Below, piece after piece: positions 3,433 through 10,692 of a stretch of DNA of 10,704 nt (positions within the stretch are counted from its first letter, which is position 1; each line of letters opens with the position of its first letter). The DNA lies in assembly GCA_945871455.1 (NCBI GenBank), contig CAMBXJ010000092.1:1-10704 (forward strand), written 5' to 3'. The notes beneath the pieces are model-generated. The model was not told where the DNA came from and did not search any database. It saw only the letters and a list, made by a program, of their open reading frames with translations. The position numbers were made by a program, and so were the translations under genes. The stretch comes from Asaia bogorensis. GTDB taxonomy: Bacteria; Pseudomonadota; Alphaproteobacteria; Acetobacterales; Acetobacteraceae.

Positions 3433-3510
3433 CTTCCGTGGAACGGCACCAGCCGGAACACGTCAGGCTCGTCCGGGAGGCGCGGAACTGGCCCCGGGAT
3501 GGCGGAGAGG

Positions 3511-3605
3511 GGAATTCCAAGGTCGGGCATTCCGCGGTCGGGAATTCCAAGGTCGGGGATGCCAAGCTCCTGGATGCCAAGAGACTGGATGCCAAGAGAC
3601 TGGAT
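3511..3605 (+). repeat. Six tandem copies of a 15-bp unit
   Basis: Consecutive 15-mers begin at 3511, 3526, 3541, 3556, 3571 and 3586. Copies one and three are identical (GGAATTCCAAGGTCG), copies five and six are identical (TGGATGCCAAGAGAC), and the others are intermediates, so the array shows a gradient. A partial seventh copy (TGGATG) ends it. The period keeps reading frame: in the frame of the next gene it would encode GIPRS and WMPRD repeats, and the last copies each carry an in-frame ATG. Confidence 0.9.
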
Positions 3606-3610
3606 GGAGG
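3606..3610 (+). promoter_or_regulatory. Shine-Dalgarno that sets the first operon start
   Basis: GGAGG directly follows the repeat array and lies 5 nt before GTG 3616. This favours GTG 3616 over the in-frame ATG codons inside the array (3559, 3574, 3589, 3604) and over ATG 3499, none of which has a comparable site. Confidence 0.55.
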
Positions 3611-3615
3611 TGTGT

Positions 3616-3822
3616 GTGGCCGCATTCATCGTACAGGCCGTAACGGGTTATGGGGCGATCGGCGTGGCCGTCGCCGTGGTCTTCCTCCTTTGGGGCATCG
3701 ACCGGATCGACCCGGGCGCGCGTGGCGGCTACGCATTCCGCCCGCTGCTGTTCCCTGGCCTGGTCCTGCTATGGCCCTTCGTCCTCCTCCGTTGGCTGGT
3801 TTTGGAGCGCGCTCGGACATGA
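3616..3822 (+). CDS. Small two-helix membrane protein, first gene of redox operon
   Basis: From GTG 3616 the product is 68 residues with two predicted membrane helices: about 4-24 (QAVTGYGAIGVAVAVVFLLW) and about 45-62 (LLFPGLVLLWPFVLLRWLV), separated by the polar loop GIDRIDPGARGGYAFRP. That loop looks like a conserved signature of small proteins found beside Rieske/ferric-reductase genes; I know no assigned function. The stop TGA (3820-3822) overlaps the next ATG. If translation began at ATG 3499 the protein would carry an N-terminal GIPRS/WMPRD repeat extension, but no ribosome binding site supports this. Likely a subunit or assembly factor of the membrane redox complex encoded downstream. 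Confidence 0.75.
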   Translation: MAAFIVQAVTGYGAIGVAVAVVFLLWGIDRIDPGARGGYAFRPLLFPGLVLLWPFVLLRWLVLERART

Positions 3823-4004
3823 GGCGCGGTCATCGCGCCACCCATCGGGGGCTGTGGACGGTGCTGGCGGTCCTGCTGCCGATGACCGTCCTGCTGGCCC
3901 TGGCCGCGCGCCGCACCGGGCCGCTTGAAGCGCCTCAGGTCCAGCTGACCGCACCATCGCCATCCCTTGGGGTAACCCCGACCCGTGGGGAAACCCCGAA
4001 ATGA
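3819..4004 (+). CDS. Small single-helix membrane protein
   Basis: The 61-residue product has a basic N-terminus (MRRGHRATHRG), one hydrophobic helix at about 12-31 (LWTVLAVLLPMTVLLALAA) and a Pro/Thr-rich tail probably in the periplasm. The ATG overlaps the upstream stop and its own TGA overlaps the next ATG, so translation is probably coupled on both sides. The tail codons contain two tiny GGGG/CCCC hairpins just before the next start. Function unknown; position suggests a subunit of the same complex. Confidence 0.75.
   Translation: MRRGHRATHRGLWTVLAVLLPMTVLLALAARRTGPLEAPQVQLTAPSPSLGVTPTRGETPK
3969..3997 (+). promoter_or_regulatory. Twin GGGG-CCCC mini-hairpins before the Rieske gene
   Basis: GGGGTAACCCC (3969-3979) and GGGGAAACCCC (3987-3997) are two perfect 4-bp stems with 3-nt loops, the second ending 3 nt before ATG 4001. 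They hold the only purine-rich stretch that could act as a ribosome binding site for that gene. Opening by ribosomes finishing the upstream gene would give coupling. Inference from sequence only. Confidence 0.35.
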
Positions 4005-5050
4005 GCGCGCGCTACGAACCGGTAGGCTGGAATGCCAGCAAGATTGTCTATGATGTCGTCGCGTTGGTCGCCATCGGGCTGTATCTGACCCTGTTCATGT
4101 GGCTGGCGCCGCGGTTCCAACACGTTACCCTGCCGCTGGATGGTTACACGGTGCGGATGAACGCTTTCGGGACCTGCGCCTTTCTGCTGATGACGCTCAT
4201 TCTCTGTATCGGCCCGGCGGCGCGCCTGGATCGGCGGTTCCTGCCGTTGCTTTACAACCGCCGCCATATCGGGGTGATGACGGCGGCGATCGCGCTGACC
4301 CATGCCTGGGCGGCGGTGGATTGGTATTTCAGCTACAGCCCGCACAACCGGTTCGAGATGGTGTTGCGCGGCAATACCAGCTTCTTCCAGGTGTCCGGCT
4401 TCCCGTTCGAGCTGTTCGGCATTTTCGCTCTGTTCATGCTGGTGCTGTTGGCCTGCACCAGTCACGATTTCTGGTTGAAATTCCTGACGCCTCCGGTGTG
4501 GAAGGCCCTGCATATGGGCCTCTACGCCGCATATGCGGCCGTCGTGCTGCATGTCGCGTTGGGCGCTTTGCAGGCGGCGCAGAACCCGCTGCTGGCCGTG
4601 GTGGTGACCTTATGCGCCGCCGGGGTCGGGGTGCTGCATGTGGCCGCGTCGCGCCGGGAACGGGGGCGGGATTTGGCGGTGGCGCCGCCATACCGGGATT
4701 CGCCCTGGGTGGTCGCCGGTCCGGTCGCCGCGATCGCCGAAGATCATGGCATGGTCGTGCATCTGGACGATGCCGAACCGGTGGCGATCTTCCGCCATCA
4801 GGGACATTTGTCCGCGGTCACCAACCTGTGTGCGCATCAGAACGGACCGTTGGGGGAAGGCAGGGTGGTCGATGGCTGCATCACCTGTCCCTGGCACGGC
4901 TTCCAATATCGGCTGGCCGATGGACGCGCGCCGGAGCCGTTCACGGAAAGGCTGGCCACCTATCGGTTGAAAGTGGAGGACGGGATGATCTTGCTGGATC
5001 CTCGGCCCAATCCGCCGGGCACCCATGTTGATCCGGTGCCGGTGCGATGA
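4001..5050 (+). CDS. Ferric-reductase-like haem membrane protein fused to a Rieske 2Fe-2S domain
   Basis: The 349-residue protein has about six membrane helices (near 18-36, 54-72, 90-110, 135-153, 168-190, 196-216) of the ferric reductase-like/YedZ type. Candidate haem ligands are H101 (ALTHAW), H171 (KALHMG) and H184 (VVLHVA). Residues 230-335 form a Rieske domain: C277-A-H279 and C296-PW-H299 (CITCPWHGFQY) are the expected cluster ligands, as in soluble bacterial Rieske ferredoxin modules. Electrons could pass between the cytoplasm-side cluster and membrane haem. No NAD or FAD domain is present, so the electron source must be another protein. It is the third of five overlapping genes and the clear core of the operon. 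Substrate and direction of electron flow are unknown. Confidence 0.92.
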   Translation: MSARYEPVGWNASKIVYDVVALVAIGLYLTLFMWLAPRFQHVTLPLDGYTVRMNAFGTCAFLLMTLILCIGPAARLDRRFLPLLYNRRHIGVMTAAIALTHAWAAVDWYFSYSPHNRFEMVLRGNTSFFQVSGFPFELFGIFALFMLVLLACTSHDFWLKFLTPPVWKALHMGLYAAYAAVVLHVALGALQAAQNPLLAVVVTLCAAGVGVLHVAASRRERGRDLAVAPPYRDSPWVVAGPVAAIAEDHGMVVHLDDAEPVAIFRHQGHLSAVTNLCAHQNGPLGEGRVVDGCITCPWHGFQYRLADGRAPEPFTERLATYRLKVEDGMILLDPRPNPPGTHVDPVPVR

Positions 5051-5799
5051 GCCGGCGGCATTTCTTCATTGGCTGGTCGGCCGCCTCGGCACGCCCCATC
5101 GCCGCATTCCTTGCCGCCGTGGTGCTGTCCGGTCTGCTCGGTTTGGGCGGCCTGGCATTGGCCTTGGGCAGCCGGGTGGACGATCCGGGCGGGGGGGACA
5201 TCACGGGCGATCGGGTGCTGACCGGCACATTGGTGGAATTTCCCTATCCGGTGCTCGTGCTGGATCCGGACGCGACCTACCCGTCGGGCCATGCCGTGCT
5301 GCTGTCGGGCGGCGGCAAGCGAGGGGTGCAGGAGGAGGCGGCCAAACTTGCCGGACAGCGCGTGCGGATCAGCGGCACCGGCGTGCGGCGCGGCAGCATC
5401 GACATGCTGTTGGTGGGCGAGATGAAGGCAGCCCCCGGCACCTCGTCCGGCGTGGCGCCGGCGTTGGTGCCACCAAATCTCGTACCAATGGGTGAATGGC
5501 GCCTGACCGGGGAAATCTGCGACGGCAAATGTGTGACCGGGGTGATGCGCCCGGGTAACGGGCTGGCGCACAAGGCATGTGCGAATGTCTGCATCATGGG
5601 CGGTGTGCCGCCGGTGCTGGTCACCACCAGCCCGGTCGCCGGGACGACTTTCCTGCTGATGGGGGATCCCCACGGCAAGGCACTGCCAGACGCGTTCCGG
5701 GACCATGTCGGCCTGCCACGGCGAATGGATGGCACGGTGGAACGCATCGCCGATTTGCTGGTGTTTCGCACCGACGTGACCCGCGCGGTGGTGCCATGA
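5047..5799 (+). CDS. Membrane-anchored protein with four-cysteine motif
   Basis: The 250-residue product begins with a basic N-terminus and one hydrophobic helix (about 18-41), then a probably periplasmic domain. Residues 55-125 look like a beta-rich, OB-like fold (GTLVEFPYPVLVLD, GQRVRISGTGVRRG). Residues 155-190 contain GEICDGKCVTGVMRPG and HKACANVCIMGG, giving C158, C162, C178 and C182 plus H175, in CxxxC pairs that could bind a metal or form disulfides. I recall similar motifs in unnamed proteins next to such operons, but no function is assigned. The ATG overlaps the stop of the Rieske gene, and its stop overlaps the next ATG. Probably a partner of the Rieske/haem protein on the outer face of the membrane. 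Confidence 0.8.
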   Translation: MSRRHFFIGWSAASARPIAAFLAAVVLSGLLGLGGLALALGSRVDDPGGGDITGDRVLTGTLVEFPYPVLVLDPDATYPSGHAVLLSGGGKRGVQEEAAKLAGQRVRISGTGVRRGSIDMLLVGEMKAAPGTSSGVAPALVPPNLVPMGEWRLTGEICDGKCVTGVMRPGNGLAHKACANVCIMGGVPPVLVTTSPVAGTTFLLMGDPHGKALPDAFRDHVGLPRRMDGTVERIADLLVFRTDVTRAVVP

Positions 5800-5966
5800 G
5801 CGCGGTTTTCGCCGCCTGCGCCCTGGCCGTCGCGGCCCTGTTGTGGTGCTACGCCCCGGTGCTGATGGGCATCGTGGGGTTGGACGAATTCGGGGAGATC
5901 GGTCAGGTCGGCCTGGTGATCCTGGGCCTGACGGCAGCGGAGAAATTGTGGTCCCGGTTTGGTTAG
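5796..5966 (+). CDS. Small membrane protein, last gene of redox operon
   Basis: The 56-residue product has a hydrophobic helix at about 5-29 (FAACALAVAALLWCYAPVL) and a second, weaker hydrophobic stretch near 36-48 (EIGQVGLVILGLTAAE) before the ending KLWSRFG. The ATG overlaps the TGA of the four-cysteine gene. Codon choice has the strong G/C third positions of its neighbours. No known family recognised. A strong hairpin follows 5 nt after the stop, so this is probably the last gene of the operon. Confidence 0.7.
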   Translation: MSAVFAACALAVAALLWCYAPVLMGIVGLDEFGEIGQVGLVILGLTAAEKLWSRFG

Positions 5967-6041: not shown

Positions 6042-6236
6042 GTGCGTCAATACGGTCGCGCGAAGCCGGGCAGGAACACGATCCGGTCTCTCGGGTCCGC
6101 GTCCCGCCTGCCAAAGCCGGCGCGGGGCCGCTTCGGATATCCTGCCGCGCGGACCGTCGGCGAAGCGGCGTCCGCCGGCGGAATCGGGCCGTTCTTCCAC
6201 CACCGGGGACGGGTGCCGGCCCGCTTTGCTCGATGA
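6042..6236 (+). CDS. Possible 64-residue basic peptide coupled to the SecA-like gene
   Basis: The GTG start follows a strong AAGGAGG site, and the stop TGA 6234-6236 overlaps the SecA-like ATG 6233. The peptide is rich in Arg, Gly, Ala and Pro (start RQYGRAKPGRNTIRS, end FFHHRGRVPARFAR), has no cysteine and no membrane helix. About three quarters of third codon positions are G or C, compatible with coding but only modestly above the other positions. It could be a translated leader that couples ribosomes into the SecA-like gene, a partner or substrate of that ATPase, or a chance ORF in G+C-rich DNA. No family recognised. Confidence 0.4.
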   Translation: MRQYGRAKPGRNTIRSLGSASRLPKPARGRFGYPAARTVGEAASAGGIGPFFHHRGRVPARFAR

Positions 6237-8281
6237 CGCGGGCCGTTCGGGAAGCGATCCTCGCCGATCCTTCCGTACTGGCGGCGGGGCGGCCGTATTC
6301 GGAACGGTCGGAGAAAGAGCCTGGCCTGCACGACAAGGTCGCCGAATATCTGCTGGCCAATACCATCCTGCCGATCAGCGGCCGGCTCCGCGACCCCGCC
6401 CGCGGACTGCGCGCGATCGACGCCCATACCGCTCGGCATGAAGCCGCGCTTGCAACCAAATCGGACGTGGAGTTGGTGGCCCTGGCGCGCGGCATGCGGT
6501 CACGGCTGCGCCGGCAGGGCTTCGTGCCGTCCCTGGTCGGCGAATGCTTTGCCCTGATCCGGGAAGCGGCGCACCGCACCCTGGAAAAACGCCACTACAA
6601 GTCGCAGTTGATGGCCGGCTGGGGGTTGCTGCAAGGCAAGCTGGTGGAAATGGCCACCGGGGAGGGCAAGACCTTCGCCGCCACCCTGCCGGTCTGCACC
6701 GTCGCCCTGGCCGGCTACCCGGTACATGTCATCACCGTGAACGACTACCTCGCATCCCGCGACGCCGAGGAGATGCGGCCGCTTTATGAGTTCCTTGGCC
6801 TGACCGTCGGCACCGTCGTGCAGGGCATGGAGCGGCCGGAACGGCGGGCGGCCTATGCGTGCTCCATCACCTATTGCACCAACAAGGAACTGGCGTTCGA
6901 TTATCTCCGCGATGGCGTGGCGAAAGGCTCTGGGGGAAACAAGGGCGGCAGCCGGCTGCATCTTGCGTTGGGCAAACTGCGTGGCGATGCGGTCCAGGCC
7001 GATGGGTTGGTGCTGCGCGGTCTCTATTTCGCGATTGTCGATGAGGCTGACAGCGTCTTCATCGACGAAGCCCGCACGCCGCTGATCCTGTCGGCATCCG
7101 GTGGGGCGGCCGATGAGGCCGAGGTCTGCGAGCATGCACTGTCCGTAGCCGCCGCCCTGGCCCTGGGGGATGATTACAAAGTCGAACTGGCGGAGCGTCA
7201 CATCGAACTGACCGATGCCGGACGTGCCACCATCGCCACCCTGTCGAAGGGCCTGGACGGGATTTTTCTGTCCGCCCGGGCGCGTGAGGAGTTCGTCACC
7301 CAGGCGCTGGTCGCGCGCATCCTGTTCCGCCGTGACGAACATTACGTCGTCGTCGACGGCAAGATCCAGATTGTCGACGAATCGACCGGCCGCGTGATGG
7401 CGGACCGGTCCTGGGAACGCGGTCTGCACCAGTTGATCGAAGTCAAGGAAGGCTGCGAGACCACCGAACGCCGCGAAACCCTGGCTCGCCTGACCTATCA
7501 GCGCCTGTTCCGCCGCTATCTGCGCCTGTCCGGCATGACCGGCACGGCGCGGGAGGTGGCGCGGGAAATCCGCTCGGTCTACGGCCTGGACGTGGTGCGC
7601 ATCCCGCTGCACCGGCCATCCCGCCGGGTGTTCGACTCCGAGATCGTCTGTGCGACGCGGGACGAGAAATGGCGGGCGGTCGCCAACACGATCGCGCGCC
7701 TGGTGGCCGAGGGGCGCCCGGTGCTGGTCGGCACCCGATCGGTCGGCGCGTCGGAGGAGATCAGCGCGGTGCTGACCGCGCGCGGCATCCGCCACGCCCT
7801 GCTGAATGCGAAGCAGGACGATACGGAGGCCGAGGTGATCGCCGCCGCCGGGCAGGCATCAACCGTGACGGTGGCCACCAACATGGCTGGCCGCGGCACC
7901 GATATCGCCCTGGCGCCGGGCGTTTCCGAACGGGGCGGGCTGCATGTGATCCTGACCGAGTTCCATGACTCCCGCCGTGTCGACCGGCAGTTGTTCGGCC
8001 GCTGCGCGCGCCAGGGGGACCCTGGCGGTTGCACCTCCATCGTGTCGCTGGAGGACGATCTGTATGCCGTCTACGCGCCCAAGGCGACCGGATTGGTGAA
8101 GCGACTGGGCGGGGCGGCCGCGTTGGGGCCGGTGTCCTGGGTGGCGCGTCTGGCGCATGGATGGTTGCGACGCATGGCGCAACGATCCGCCGAACGGCGC
8201 AGCAAGGAAATCAGGGTGGCGAACCTGAAGCAGGATCGGCGTCTGGAGCAGACCCTGGCGTTCTCCGGACGCGGCGAGTAG
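6233..8281 (+). CDS. Accessory SecA-like translocase ATPase, shortened
   Basis: From ATG 6233 the protein is 682 residues; typical SecA has about 850-900. Motor motifs are intact: Walker A MATGEGKT (140-147), DEAD-type VDEADSVFIDEARTPLI (269-285), VDESTGRVM (381-389), SGMTGTA (433-439), TNMAGRGTDI (549-558) and the arginine-finger region GRCARQGDPGG (589-599). The segment between the DEAD box and VDESTGRV, which holds the preprotein cross-linking domain, is shorter than in E. coli SecA. The sequence ends about 75 residues after LEDDL (606-610), so most of the helical scaffold, wing, two-helix finger and zinc-binding tail are absent. An N-terminal extension of roughly 40 residues precedes the usual start. 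It is unlikely to be the housekeeping SecA. The ATG lacks its own ribosome binding site but overlaps the stop of a small ORF. The substrate is unknown. Confidence 0.9.
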   Translation: MTRAVREAILADPSVLAAGRPYSERSEKEPGLHDKVAEYLLANTILPISGRLRDPARGLRAIDAHTARHEAALATKSDVELVALARGMRSRLRRQGFVPSLVGECFALIREAAHRTLEKRHYKSQLMAGWGLLQGKLVEMATGEGKTFAATLPVCTVALAGYPVHVITVNDYLASRDAEEMRPLYEFLGLTVGTVVQGMERPERRAAYACSITYCTNKELAFDYLRDGVAKGSGGNKGGSRLHLALGKLRGDAVQADGLVLRGLYFAIVDEADSVFIDEARTPLILSASGGAADEAEVCEHALSVAAALALGDDYKVELAERHIELTDAGRATIATLSKGLDGIFLSARAREEFVTQALVARILFRRDEHYVVVDGKIQIVDESTGRVMADRSWERGLHQLIEVKEGCETTERRETLARLTYQRLFRRYLRLSGMTGTAREVAREIRSVYGLDVVRIPLHRPSRRVFDSEIVCATRDEKWRAVANTIARLVAEGRPVLVGTRSVGASEEISAVLTARGIRHALLNAKQDDTEAEVIAAAGQASTVTVATNMAGRGTDIALAPGVSERGGLHVILTEFHDSRRVDRQLFGRCARQGDPGGCTSIVSLEDDLYAVYAPKATGLVKRLGGAAALGPVSWVARLAHGWLRRMAQRSAERRSKEIRVANLKQDRRLEQTLAFSGRGE

Positions 8282-8577: not shown

Positions 8578-10203
8578 TCAGTCGAACAACGTGGCCAATC
8601 TCTGCTTGATGCTGTCGGCGATATACAGTGCCAAAGCCTGGATGGTGGAGGTCGGATTGACCCCCCCGGACGTCACCCAGATGCTACCATCGACGATGAA
8701 CAGGTTCTTCACGTCATGGCAACGACCCCAGGCATTCACCACCGACCGTTCCGGATCGTTGCCCATCCGCGCGGTGCCCAGCAGATGGCCCGGGCTATTG
8801 AGAATGGTCCGGGACGTGTAGAGATTGGTGGCGCCGGCCGCGGTCAGGATATCGCTGGCGCGGGCGATGCCATGTTCCATCATGCGGCGCGTGTTTTCGC
8901 TGATCGTATAGTCGATCTTTGCCGCCGGAATGCCGTGGCTGTCCTTCAGCACGGGGTCCAACGTCACCCGGTTGTGTTCCTCCGGCAGATCCTCGCAGGC
9001 GACGCCGATCTGGATGCGGCGATACAGCAGGTCGCGGTAGATGCGGTGATGATCCTTGCCCCAGGGCAGATGGCCGACCGAGGCGCTGGTAATCGCCTCG
9101 TTCACCACGCCGGTGCCGCGGGCGAATTGCAAGGTGTAGCCACGCACGAAATCCCGATTGGGGTCGGTTTCGTAGAACTCCTTGCTCCAGATCGACAGCA
9201 TGGGGGCGTGGTCGCCATCCAGCCGTTCGTCGACATAGCCGCGCACCTGCGGCCAGGGATGCAGCATCAGGTTCTTGCCGACCAGACCGCTGGAATTGGC
9301 CAGTCCGTTGGGAAACCGCGACGATGCCGAGTTCAGCAAAAGCCGCGGCGTGCCGATGCCGTTGCAGGCGACGATGACCATCTCGGCCGGCTGGAACCGC
9401 TCGATCCCGTCGGCATCGTAATAGATCGCGCCCGAGGCCATACCCTGTGCGTTGGTGGTGATTTCCCGCACCCGGCAGCGCGGGCGCAGTTCCACCCCGG
9501 CGCGGATGGCATGCGGCCAATAGGTGATATCGACGCTGGCTTTCGCGCCCTGGGCACAGCCCGGCGTGCAATGTCCGAGGTTGATGCAGGGCGCGCGCCC
9601 GTCATATTCCGTTGTGGCAATGGCCGAATCCGATGGCCACCAGTGCCAGCCAAGCTTGTTCATGGCCTTGGCATACCGGGTGCCGGTCTTGCCCAGAGGC
9701 AGCGGCGGCATGGTCGGCTGGTGCGGCGGATAGGCCGGATCGCCCGCGAGGCCGGCGACACCGGTCATGCGGTCGTTCTCGGCAAGAAACGGCTCCAGGG
9801 TCGCGTAATCGACCGGCCAGTCATCGGCGATGCCATCCAGCGACTTCACCCGGAAATCGGATGGGTGCATGCGCGGATAATGCGCCGTGTACATGACCGT
9901 GCCGCCGCCGACGGCGTTGAAATTGGCGACCTTCATCACGGAGTTGTCGTCGTTGACCGGATAATCCGTGTCACGCGCCCGCCGGTTCGGGCTGATGTCG
10001 AAATCGCCGTAGCGCCGCGCTTCCCAGTCGCGTCCATTGCTGGGGAAGTCGGATTGCTTCATCCAATCCCCTTGCTCCAGACACAGGATACGCATTTTGG
10101 TTTCGGCCAGGCTCCATGCCACCGCGGCGCCTGACGCGCCGGAGCCGATAATCAGGACATCCACCATGTCGTTGGTGGGGTGGGTGGTGCTGGACGGCGC
10201 CAT
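8578..10203 (-). CDS. GMC-family FAD-dependent dehydrogenase
   Basis: The 541-residue flavoenzyme has the FAD dinucleotide fold at the start (VLIIGSGASG, G20/G22/G25, with E43 as ribose binder) and the GMC signature end: H473 in SPGHLLGTARMG and N516 in GGVNPTSTIQALA, the expected catalytic pair. It probably oxidises an alcohol, sugar or polyol. Between 206 and 216 it has CINLGHCTPGC, three cysteines in C-x5-C-x3-C spacing, in the region where FAD glucose and gluconate dehydrogenases carry a 3Fe-4S cluster. GGAG at 10212-10215 is 8 nt before this ATG; M13 is a possible alternative start. The partner small subunit ends 33 nt upstream. No Tat signal is seen, so it may act in the cytoplasm. Substrate unknown. 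Confidence 0.93.
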   Translation of the reverse strand: MAPSSTTHPTNDMVDVLIIGSGASGAAVAWSLAETKMRILCLEQGDWMKQSDFPSNGRDWEARRYGDFDISPNRRARDTDYPVNDDNSVMKVANFNAVGGGTVMYTAHYPRMHPSDFRVKSLDGIADDWPVDYATLEPFLAENDRMTGVAGLAGDPAYPPHQPTMPPLPLGKTGTRYAKAMNKLGWHWWPSDSAIATTEYDGRAPCINLGHCTPGCAQGAKASVDITYWPHAIRAGVELRPRCRVREITTNAQGMASGAIYYDADGIERFQPAEMVIVACNGIGTPRLLLNSASSRFPNGLANSSGLVGKNLMLHPWPQVRGYVDERLDGDHAPMLSIWSKEFYETDPNRDFVRGYTLQFARGTGVVNEAITSASVGHLPWGKDHHRIYRDLLYRRIQIGVACEDLPEEHNRVTLDPVLKDSHGIPAAKIDYTISENTRRMMEHGIARASDILTAAGATNLYTSRTILNSPGHLLGTARMGNDPERSVVNAWGRCHDVKNLFIVDGSIWVTSGGVNPTSTIQALALYIADSIKQRLATLFD

Positions 10204-10236
10204 GATGGGGTCTCCGGTCTTGGCGGGGCGGTGGTC

Positions 10237-10692
10237 TTACGGAGCGTCGCGCCACATTTTCGGGCGGGCGCGGACCGGATCCAGCAGCGACCAATCCCCC
10301 TGTTCCAGGGTGTGGCCTTTCGGGAAGGGCGGGCGTGGTTCCAATCCCAGGGACCGCACGACGCGATCATCGCGGTAGTAGCATTGCAGGATGACGCGAC
10401 CGAGCGTGGTTGCCAGCGCGCCGTCGGTCGCCTGGAAGGAGTCCGCGGTCGCCTGCTTGCGGGTCGGATCGAGGTCACTGAACGCGCCGCCGCCGAGTTC
10501 CGCGATTTTGGCGAGGGCCTTCTTGATGTCGGCCATGTCGCGGCCGATGGATTTCTCGATATCGGCGAATATGGCCGGATCGTCGGCGCCGGGGACACGG
10601 AACTCCTCGCTGGCCGGGATCATCAGGCCGGCAATACTGCGCAGGTCGCGGCTTTCGGCCGGGGAGAGACCTGGTTCGGAGGTGGTCTGCAT
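10237..10692 (-). CDS. Gluconate 2-dehydrogenase subunit 3-like small subunit
   Basis: The 151-residue product matches the small subunit that pairs with GMC dehydrogenases: RDLRSIAGLMIPASEEFRVPG near the start (15-35) is the typical family opening, followed by mainly helical sequence with YYRDDRVVRSLGLEPRPPFPKG (about 105-126). GAGG at 10698-10701 precedes the ATG. Family members usually carry a Tat signal that exports the complex; this one starts MQTTSEPGLSPAESRD with no twin-arginine or hydrophobic segment. It is the upstream gene of a two-gene operon with the GMC subunit. Any genes before it lie outside the window. Confidence 0.85.
   Translation of the reverse strand: MQTTSEPGLSPAESRDLRSIAGLMIPASEEFRVPGADDPAIFADIEKSIGRDMADIKKALAKIAELGGGAFSDLDPTRKQATADSFQATDGALATTLGRVILQCYYRDDRVVRSLGLEPRPPFPKGHTLEQGDWSLLDPVRARPKMWRDAP

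Follow-up and report, generated by a model that had tools for sequence, protein, structure and literature searches.

What might be done by a membrane protein that joins a ferric-reductase-type, putatively haem-binding domain to a Rieske [2Fe-2S] cluster, and with which partners, is the question raised by a locus of Asaia bogorensis (Acetobacteraceae). The DNA analysed, here called the window, is a stretch of 10,704 nucleotides comprising contig CAMBXJ010000092.1 of assembly GCA_945871455.1 (C92 below), part of a 4.06-Mb genome that is 85% complete. Its plus strand carries an operon of five open reading frames (ORFs), g1 to g5, at positions 3616–5966. It is highly likely that the five genes encode one complex. 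Our favoured reading, put forward tentatively, is that this complex lies in the inner membrane and exports electrons from a cytoplasmic Rieske cluster via haem to the g4 protein and to SCO-type cysteine proteins. The complex and its wiring are well supported; we infer the direction of flow, which is probably outward, and the target, for which thiol or copper sites are offered with some reserve.

Organisation and conservation of the operon

All five ORFs were confirmed and are joined, as the initial annotation had claimed, by four ATGA overlaps (at 3819, 4001, 5047 and 5796), each of which was verified. Its further claim that these overlaps imply a fixed stoichiometry was given up, overlaps by themselves being insufficient to show it. 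The best start of g1 is the GTG at 3616, for which GGAGG at 3606–3610 on the plus strand is the likely ribosome-binding site; an ATG at 3604 is the in-frame alternative. Two adjoining 15-bp tandem repeat arrays (GGGAATTCCAAGGTC and GGATGCCAAGAGACT) occupy positions 3510–3606, immediately 5' of g1. Comparison with the nearest relative, locus L018, in which g3 is 93% identical, gave ratios of non-synonymous to synonymous substitution (Ka/Ks) of 0.18, 0.45, 0.10, 0.10 and 0.28 for g1 to g5, and we conclude from these low values that all five behave as protein genes under purifying selection. The products of g1, g2, g4 and g5 have no match above the Pfam or NCBIfam cut-offs.

Scanning the GTDB species genomes with an alignment of g3 confirmed 347 relatives, of which the best 80, all from named genomes, provide the locus statistics given here. 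Across these 80 loci the gene order is g1-g2-g3-g4. The g1 gene lies just 5' of g3 in all but L027, L037 and L061, three loci that start at a contig end (hence 77 of 80); a tblastn match to g2 is present in 72, and g4 is found in all 80, whole or cut by the end of the contig. Homologues of the Rieske protein do not, then, routinely lack the small genes in this set, and g1 is there wherever upstream DNA exists. A −4 overlap occurs at the g1/g2 junction in 36 of the 71 loci in which both genes were called (five of the 71 show a fusion), at g2/g3 in 61 of 72 and at g3/g4 in 50 of 80; starts were picked near the homologous start, which biases these counts mildly, and some loci are spaced differently.

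The carriers include Roseibium/Labrenzia, Pseudovibrio, Filomicrobium, Hyphomicrobium, Litoreibacter and Acetobacteraceae. Among 72,556 plasmid records (E up to 1e-40) the operon is found on five Rhizobium plasmids; on three of these it appears as five consecutive annotated genes, where g3 bears the name 'Rieske 2Fe-2S domain-containing protein' and its four companions are annotated as hypothetical. When 398 genomes were drawn evenly from the phylum, the seven that carry full-length g3 were exactly the seven that carry full-length g4 (Fisher p 3e-15 if the genomes, which are related, are taken as independent). Partial matches are seen more widely: three further genomes have weak matches to the g4 profile in domain 2 only, and 59 further genomes match the g3 profile from profile position 202 onward, that is, in the Rieske part only. 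Among 98 relatives, g3 was found in 16, one copy being a fragment near a contig end. Since this distribution is patchy, we regard the set as accessory and not core.

Two neighbouring genes were considered as members and rejected. The SecA-like gene at 6236–8281 stands beside the operon in none of the 80 loci, three chance-level matches (E 0.2–0.76) apart, and the upstream squalene/phytoene-synthase-like gene is retained in eight close relatives only.

The g3 protein joins a ferric-reductase membrane domain to a Rieske domain

The g3 gene (4001–5050, plus strand) encodes 349 residues that match Ferric_reduct (PF01794) over residues 57–181 (E 1.6e-10; 41.5 bits against a cut-off of 28) and Rieske (PF00355) over residues 236–321 (E 1.1e-13; 51.3 bits). 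The Pfam and NCBIfam scans list no FAD- or NAD(P)H-binding domain in it, which bears out the earlier description of a Rieske and haem core that lacks a flavin domain. In the structure model (predicted local distance difference test, pLDDT, 82.4) six long helices are followed by the C-terminal Rieske domain. Among 51 g3 sequences there is no variation at five histidines (H89, H101, H155, H171 and H184) or at the four Rieske ligands, C277, H279, C296 and H299. The candidate haem ligands are H89/H101 on transmembrane segment (TM) 3 (helix 87–110) and H171/H184 on TM5 (helix 164–187).

Foldseek comparison of the membrane part gave weak matches, with STEAP2 ranked top (E 1.5e-3) and NOX5 at E 3.9e-3. 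The Rieske domain, at about residues 236–332 (4706–4996, plus strand), has dioxygenase Rieske ferredoxins as its nearest solved structures (E to 1.2e-5). It resembles these ferredoxins and NirD in the ligand pattern C277-x-H279 and C296-x2-H299 and in matching the full domain, but differs in being tethered to a putative membrane haem domain; a scan of ten window proteins revealed no oxygenase. Arginine-rich loops lie between TM2 and TM3 (RLDRRFLPLLYNRR) and after TM6 (SRRERGR), so that, by the positive-inside rule, the Rieske domain is predicted to be cytoplasmic.

With the FRD superfamily (MsrQ/YedZ, bacterial FRE, NOX and STEAP) g3 shares the predicted membrane haem domain and its TM3/TM5 histidines. 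It differs from these in that the flavin/NAD(P)H module is replaced by a Rieske domain, and its operon adds the constant partners g1, g2 and g4. The FRD and Rieske fusion has been known since 2013, when it was drawn as architecture M4, also bearing an FMN label (Figure 3 legend of PMC3591440). The earlier statement that the set has no assigned function thus stands in that we found none in print, and yields in that the fusion itself had been recorded. The open-licence full-text literature yielded no description of the operon, nor of its link to the Rieske-GltS gene described below, g4 lacking a name that could be searched, and the passages of PMC10715153 and PMC5449189 that came up do not concern the operon.

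The g4 protein and its cysteine/histidine domain

The g4 product (5047–5799, plus strand) is a membrane-anchored, predicted periplasmic protein of 250 residues with two OB-like β barrels. Its model (pLDDT 91.9) consists of a helix at 12–42 and barrels at 51–128 and 146–242, with a helical insert carrying the motif C158-x3-C162-x4-M167-x7-H175-x2-C178-x3-C182 (5518–5592, plus strand). A fold search matched the first barrel to OB folds, and the strand order in the model would give the second barrel OB character as well. As the search hardly covered the cysteine domain, we do not claim a new fold for it. All of 58 g4 sequences retain C162, M167, H175, C178 and C182, and at least 90% of them also have C158. 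Both of the CxxxC pairs noted in the initial annotation exist (C158/C162 and C178/C182), although C158 falls outside the wider motif C162-M167-H175-C178-C182.

The window g4 gave no Pfam match at E up to 1, and its sequence gave nothing meaningful against solved structures. Among the 58 members, DUF5818 matched weakly in seven (best E 0.0027) and four other families in one or two each. A clearer relationship emerged with a secreted protein of 147 amino acids, which is homologous to domain 2 of g4 and to that domain only (hhalign probability 96.5, E 7.7e-10). In the 147-aa protein C158 is replaced, the other cysteines and the histidine are kept, and the methionine lies one residue further on; from the g4 side, the differences are the membrane anchor, the extra N-terminal barrel and the extra cysteine C158. 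A 188-aa cysteine protein is homologous in turn to the 147-aa protein. Both names are working labels, a published name having been found for neither. A predicted cytoplasmic Rieske centre and a predicted periplasmic Cys/His protein thus lie on the two sides of the membrane that the initial annotation had hypothesised.

Three small membrane proteins

The remaining genes encode the three tiny membrane proteins announced in the initial annotation, and a hydropathy scan found TM segments in each: two in g1, one in g2 and two in g5. The g1 product (3616–3822, plus strand; 68 residues) carries the motif GIDRIDPxARGxYAFRPLLIPG..WP, and in 14 sequences F27, R34, Y43, F45, R46, P51, G52, W57 and P58 are invariant (numbering from the ATG at 3604). 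The g2 product (3819–4004, plus strand; 61 residues) has an N-terminal HRxxH..W, with R6, H9, W13 and P21 invariant in 14 sequences. The two genes form a single fused ORF in eight of the 80 loci, which speaks for contact between their products; judging by the fusion, the C terminus of g1 would lie, like the N terminus of g2, on the cytoplasmic side.

The g5 product (5796–5966, plus strand; 56 residues) is conserved by place and not by letters, since its sequence varies while its position is kept. A short hydrophobic ORF of poorly conserved sequence begins directly 3' of g4 in 71 of the 80 loci, a count that favours positives because the most hydrophobic candidate was chosen. The nine loci that have none comprise L029, L080 and L095, in which the contig ends in or just past g4, four from Pseudovibrio, and L064 and L071.

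Genes associated with the operon and with the g4 family

The g4 family is tied to SCO1. In nine of nine loci examined by tblastn, namely L049 and a single locus from every one of the eight genomes carrying the 147-aa protein, the gene for this protein is adjoined by those for the 188-aa protein and SCO1/SenC, the SCO1-SenC Pfam match being confirmed in six of the nine. In the draw of 398 genomes the 147-aa protein occurs in five of the seven with g3 and in three of the 391 others (p 1.4e-8, on the same assumption of independence as above). In a Filomicrobium metagenome-assembled genome (L049) the two sets lie divergently within one cluster: one strand holds the SCO1, 188-aa, 147-aa and Rieske-TPP genes, and the other a cation/proton-antiporter-like gene (identified by reading), a Rieske-GltS gene and g1 to g5. 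At L109/L111 the SCO1 set has a Ferric_reduct protein that lacks a Rieske domain nearby. An OpgC/TPP/TPR group lies at most about 8 kb from the operon in L048, L050 and L151–L153, with OpgC and TPP about 9 kb off in L049; it is found at most about 8 kb from the SCO1 set whole in L116 and less the TPP gene in L111 and L113. No SCO1 was found beside the window operon among the ten window proteins scanned, the genome's only SCO1 match being on contig C109.

A CopD-family gene lies 3' of the operon on two of the three Rhizobium plasmids viewed, directly after it on one and 5.6 kb on in the other; none was seen on the third. In the R. leguminosarum plasmid (L151, 12915–15385) genes for a sigma-70 factor, DUF1109, a chlorite dismutase family protein and NrsF lie 3' of the operon, a possible link to stress responses. 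In the R. binae plasmid (L153, 1–2648) DsbD, thioredoxin-fold and DsbA-family genes lie 7 to 9 kb 5' of it.

In 38 of the 80 loci, 14 of which belong to neither Roseibium nor Pseudovibrio, the operon has a co-directional gene for a Rieske-FMN glutamate-synthase-like protein (Rieske-GltS) at most 6.5 kb away; in 20 loci a Rieske-TPP enzyme gene is so placed. Of the loci titled Acetobacteraceae other than the ten closest (L018–L027), L063 carries the glutamate-synthase-like gene; L151–L153 have no Rieske-GltS match. In the 398 genomes Rieske-GltS accompanies g3 in four of the seven and, with its Rieske part included, also occurs in seven genomes that lack g3, all of a single other family, f74 (five full length, two partial); the gene contexts of the five full-length f74 copies indicate no clear function. 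As an obligatory partner it was rejected, being missing (E up to 1e-100) from 15 of the 16 g3-bearing genomes among the 98 relatives. At L146 (8103–10245), in a genome that shares the phylum but is not listed under the same class, a Rieske-GltS gene occurs in the absence of g3 and has an msrA-like gene right behind it (by reading, not by profile).

Proposed function and alternatives

In the mechanism that we favour, the cytoplasmic Rieske cluster of g3 would take up electrons, two b haems on the TM3/TM5 histidines would carry them through the membrane, and the periplasmic OB-fold domain of g4 would receive them at its Cys/His/Met centre. From there g4 would hand them to secreted SCO-type cysteine proteins, for dithiol reduction or for reduction of Cu(II) to Cu(I), and g1, g2 and g5 would be small membrane subunits joining g3 and g4. 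The cofactor occupancy and membrane topology assumed for the complex are those that we infer. Thiol or copper targets are suggested because the g4 family is tied to SCO1 and because two Rhizobium plasmids have a CopD-family gene 3' of the operon. There is a precedent in TlpA, which reduces the thiols of ScoI, a periplasmic SCO protein, as described in a passage of PMC6696091. The proposed outcome, reduced periplasmic cysteine pairs, is that of the DsbD/CcdA and TlpA-ScoI routes of thiol export; the operon differs in that Rieske and haem replace dithiols, and its five proteins gave no match to the DsbD/CcdA membrane domain or to a thioredoxin domain. A wider proposal, which we regard as rather doubtful, is that the set forms a third route of reducing power into the periplasm beside DsbD/CcdA and MsrQ, running from Rieske through two b haems and Cys/His/Met OB-like domains to SCO-type thiol/copper proteins, the Roseibium- and Filomicrobium-type versions adding Rieske-GltS and Rieske-TPP as possible donors.

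Several observations weigh against the export of electrons to SCO-type proteins. The histidine pairs of g3 are spaced X11 on TM3 and X12 on TM5, so that the TM3 pair fails the NOX filter, which in the part of PMC5676040 describing it requires two His-X12/14-His pairs. The 147-aa protein was not found in the window's genome (at the completeness given above) or in genome G176, both of which carry the operon and on whose evidence it is not an obligatory target, and three genomes have it in the absence of g3. The p-values of 3e-15 and 1.4e-8 overstate independence. As for the electron donor, Rieske-GltS has no match in the window's genome, and in the ten closest loci (L018–L027, some on short contigs) the operon has neither it nor Rieske-TPP as a neighbour. 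We consider that these two enzymes extend the system and do not define it.

Those same ten loci, together with the 15 of 16 relatives that have g3 but lack Rieske-GltS, count against flow in the inward direction, in which oxidation at g4 in the periplasm would feed the cytoplasmic Rieske-GltS and Rieske-TPP enzymes. The presence of their genes near the operon (38 and 20 of 80 loci) is what recommends this idea; in the parts of PMC3591440 and PMC5676040 that bear on it, however, FRE, NOX and MsrQ send electrons outward or to periplasmic partners, and we consider inward flow quite improbable. A complex that itself acts as a reductase of Fe(III) or Cu(II) in the periplasm or outside the cell, as FRE and STEAP do, with g4 as a metal-docking subunit, would be in keeping with the FRD-superfamily core of g3, with STEAP2 as the top-ranked, weak structural match of the membrane domain, with a C/M/H/C/C set in g4 that could bind metal and with the CopD-family gene on two of the three Rhizobium plasmids viewed. 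No iron transporter or siderophore gene was noticed, however, in the three annotated plasmid regions (most neighbours of the 80 loci were not domain-scanned), and the SCO1 link suits copper delivery or thiols no less than the reduction of free ions; such a metalloreductase we judge unlikely.

SCO1 proteins function in assembly, and OB folds often merely bind partners. Since the four cysteines of g4 would also allow two disulfides, g4 might be structural or disulfide-containing and the complex might mature another membrane enzyme with no steady electron flow, but the invariant Rieske and candidate haem ligands of g3 imply a redox role and make an assembly factor very improbable. Repair of the MsrPQ kind, with g3 in place of MsrQ and with g4 or another protein restoring oxidised periplasmic residues, could draw on the membership of g3 in the same FRD family and on the msrA-like gene after Rieske-GltS at L146. 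The MsrP-type molybdo-domain PF00174 was, however, not found in the window's genome, at 85% completeness, and is not encoded in the operon, and none of the eight NCBIfam families that g3 matches at E up to 1 is named MsrQ, the content of the library for MsrQ being unchecked; we give this possibility little credence.

Were the reading of an electron-exporting complex correct, a recurrent and functionally unannotated alphaproteobacterial redox complex, present on Rhizobium plasmids and in cultured Roseibium, would acquire a name, and the SCO1-tied OB-like Cys/His family its first biochemical handle. It would further follow that electrons can enter a membrane protein of the ferric-reductase type by way of a Rieske cluster instead of a flavin dehydrogenase.

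Other genes in the window

The SecA-like protein encoded 3' of the operon (6236–8281, plus strand; 681 residues) has the DEAD, cross-linking and P-loop SecA domains and scores below the NCBIfam cut-offs for SecA and SecA2. Upstream, a 24-bp tandem repeat of 4.2 copies (2464–2563) lies just 5' of a minus-strand ORF (1833–2429) that, by reading only, resembles superoxide dismutase. The far end of the window (8578–10692, minus strand) holds a GMC oxidoreductase of 541 residues with a 151-aa gene just 5' of it on the same strand, whose product resembles a small dehydrogenase subunit, again by reading only.

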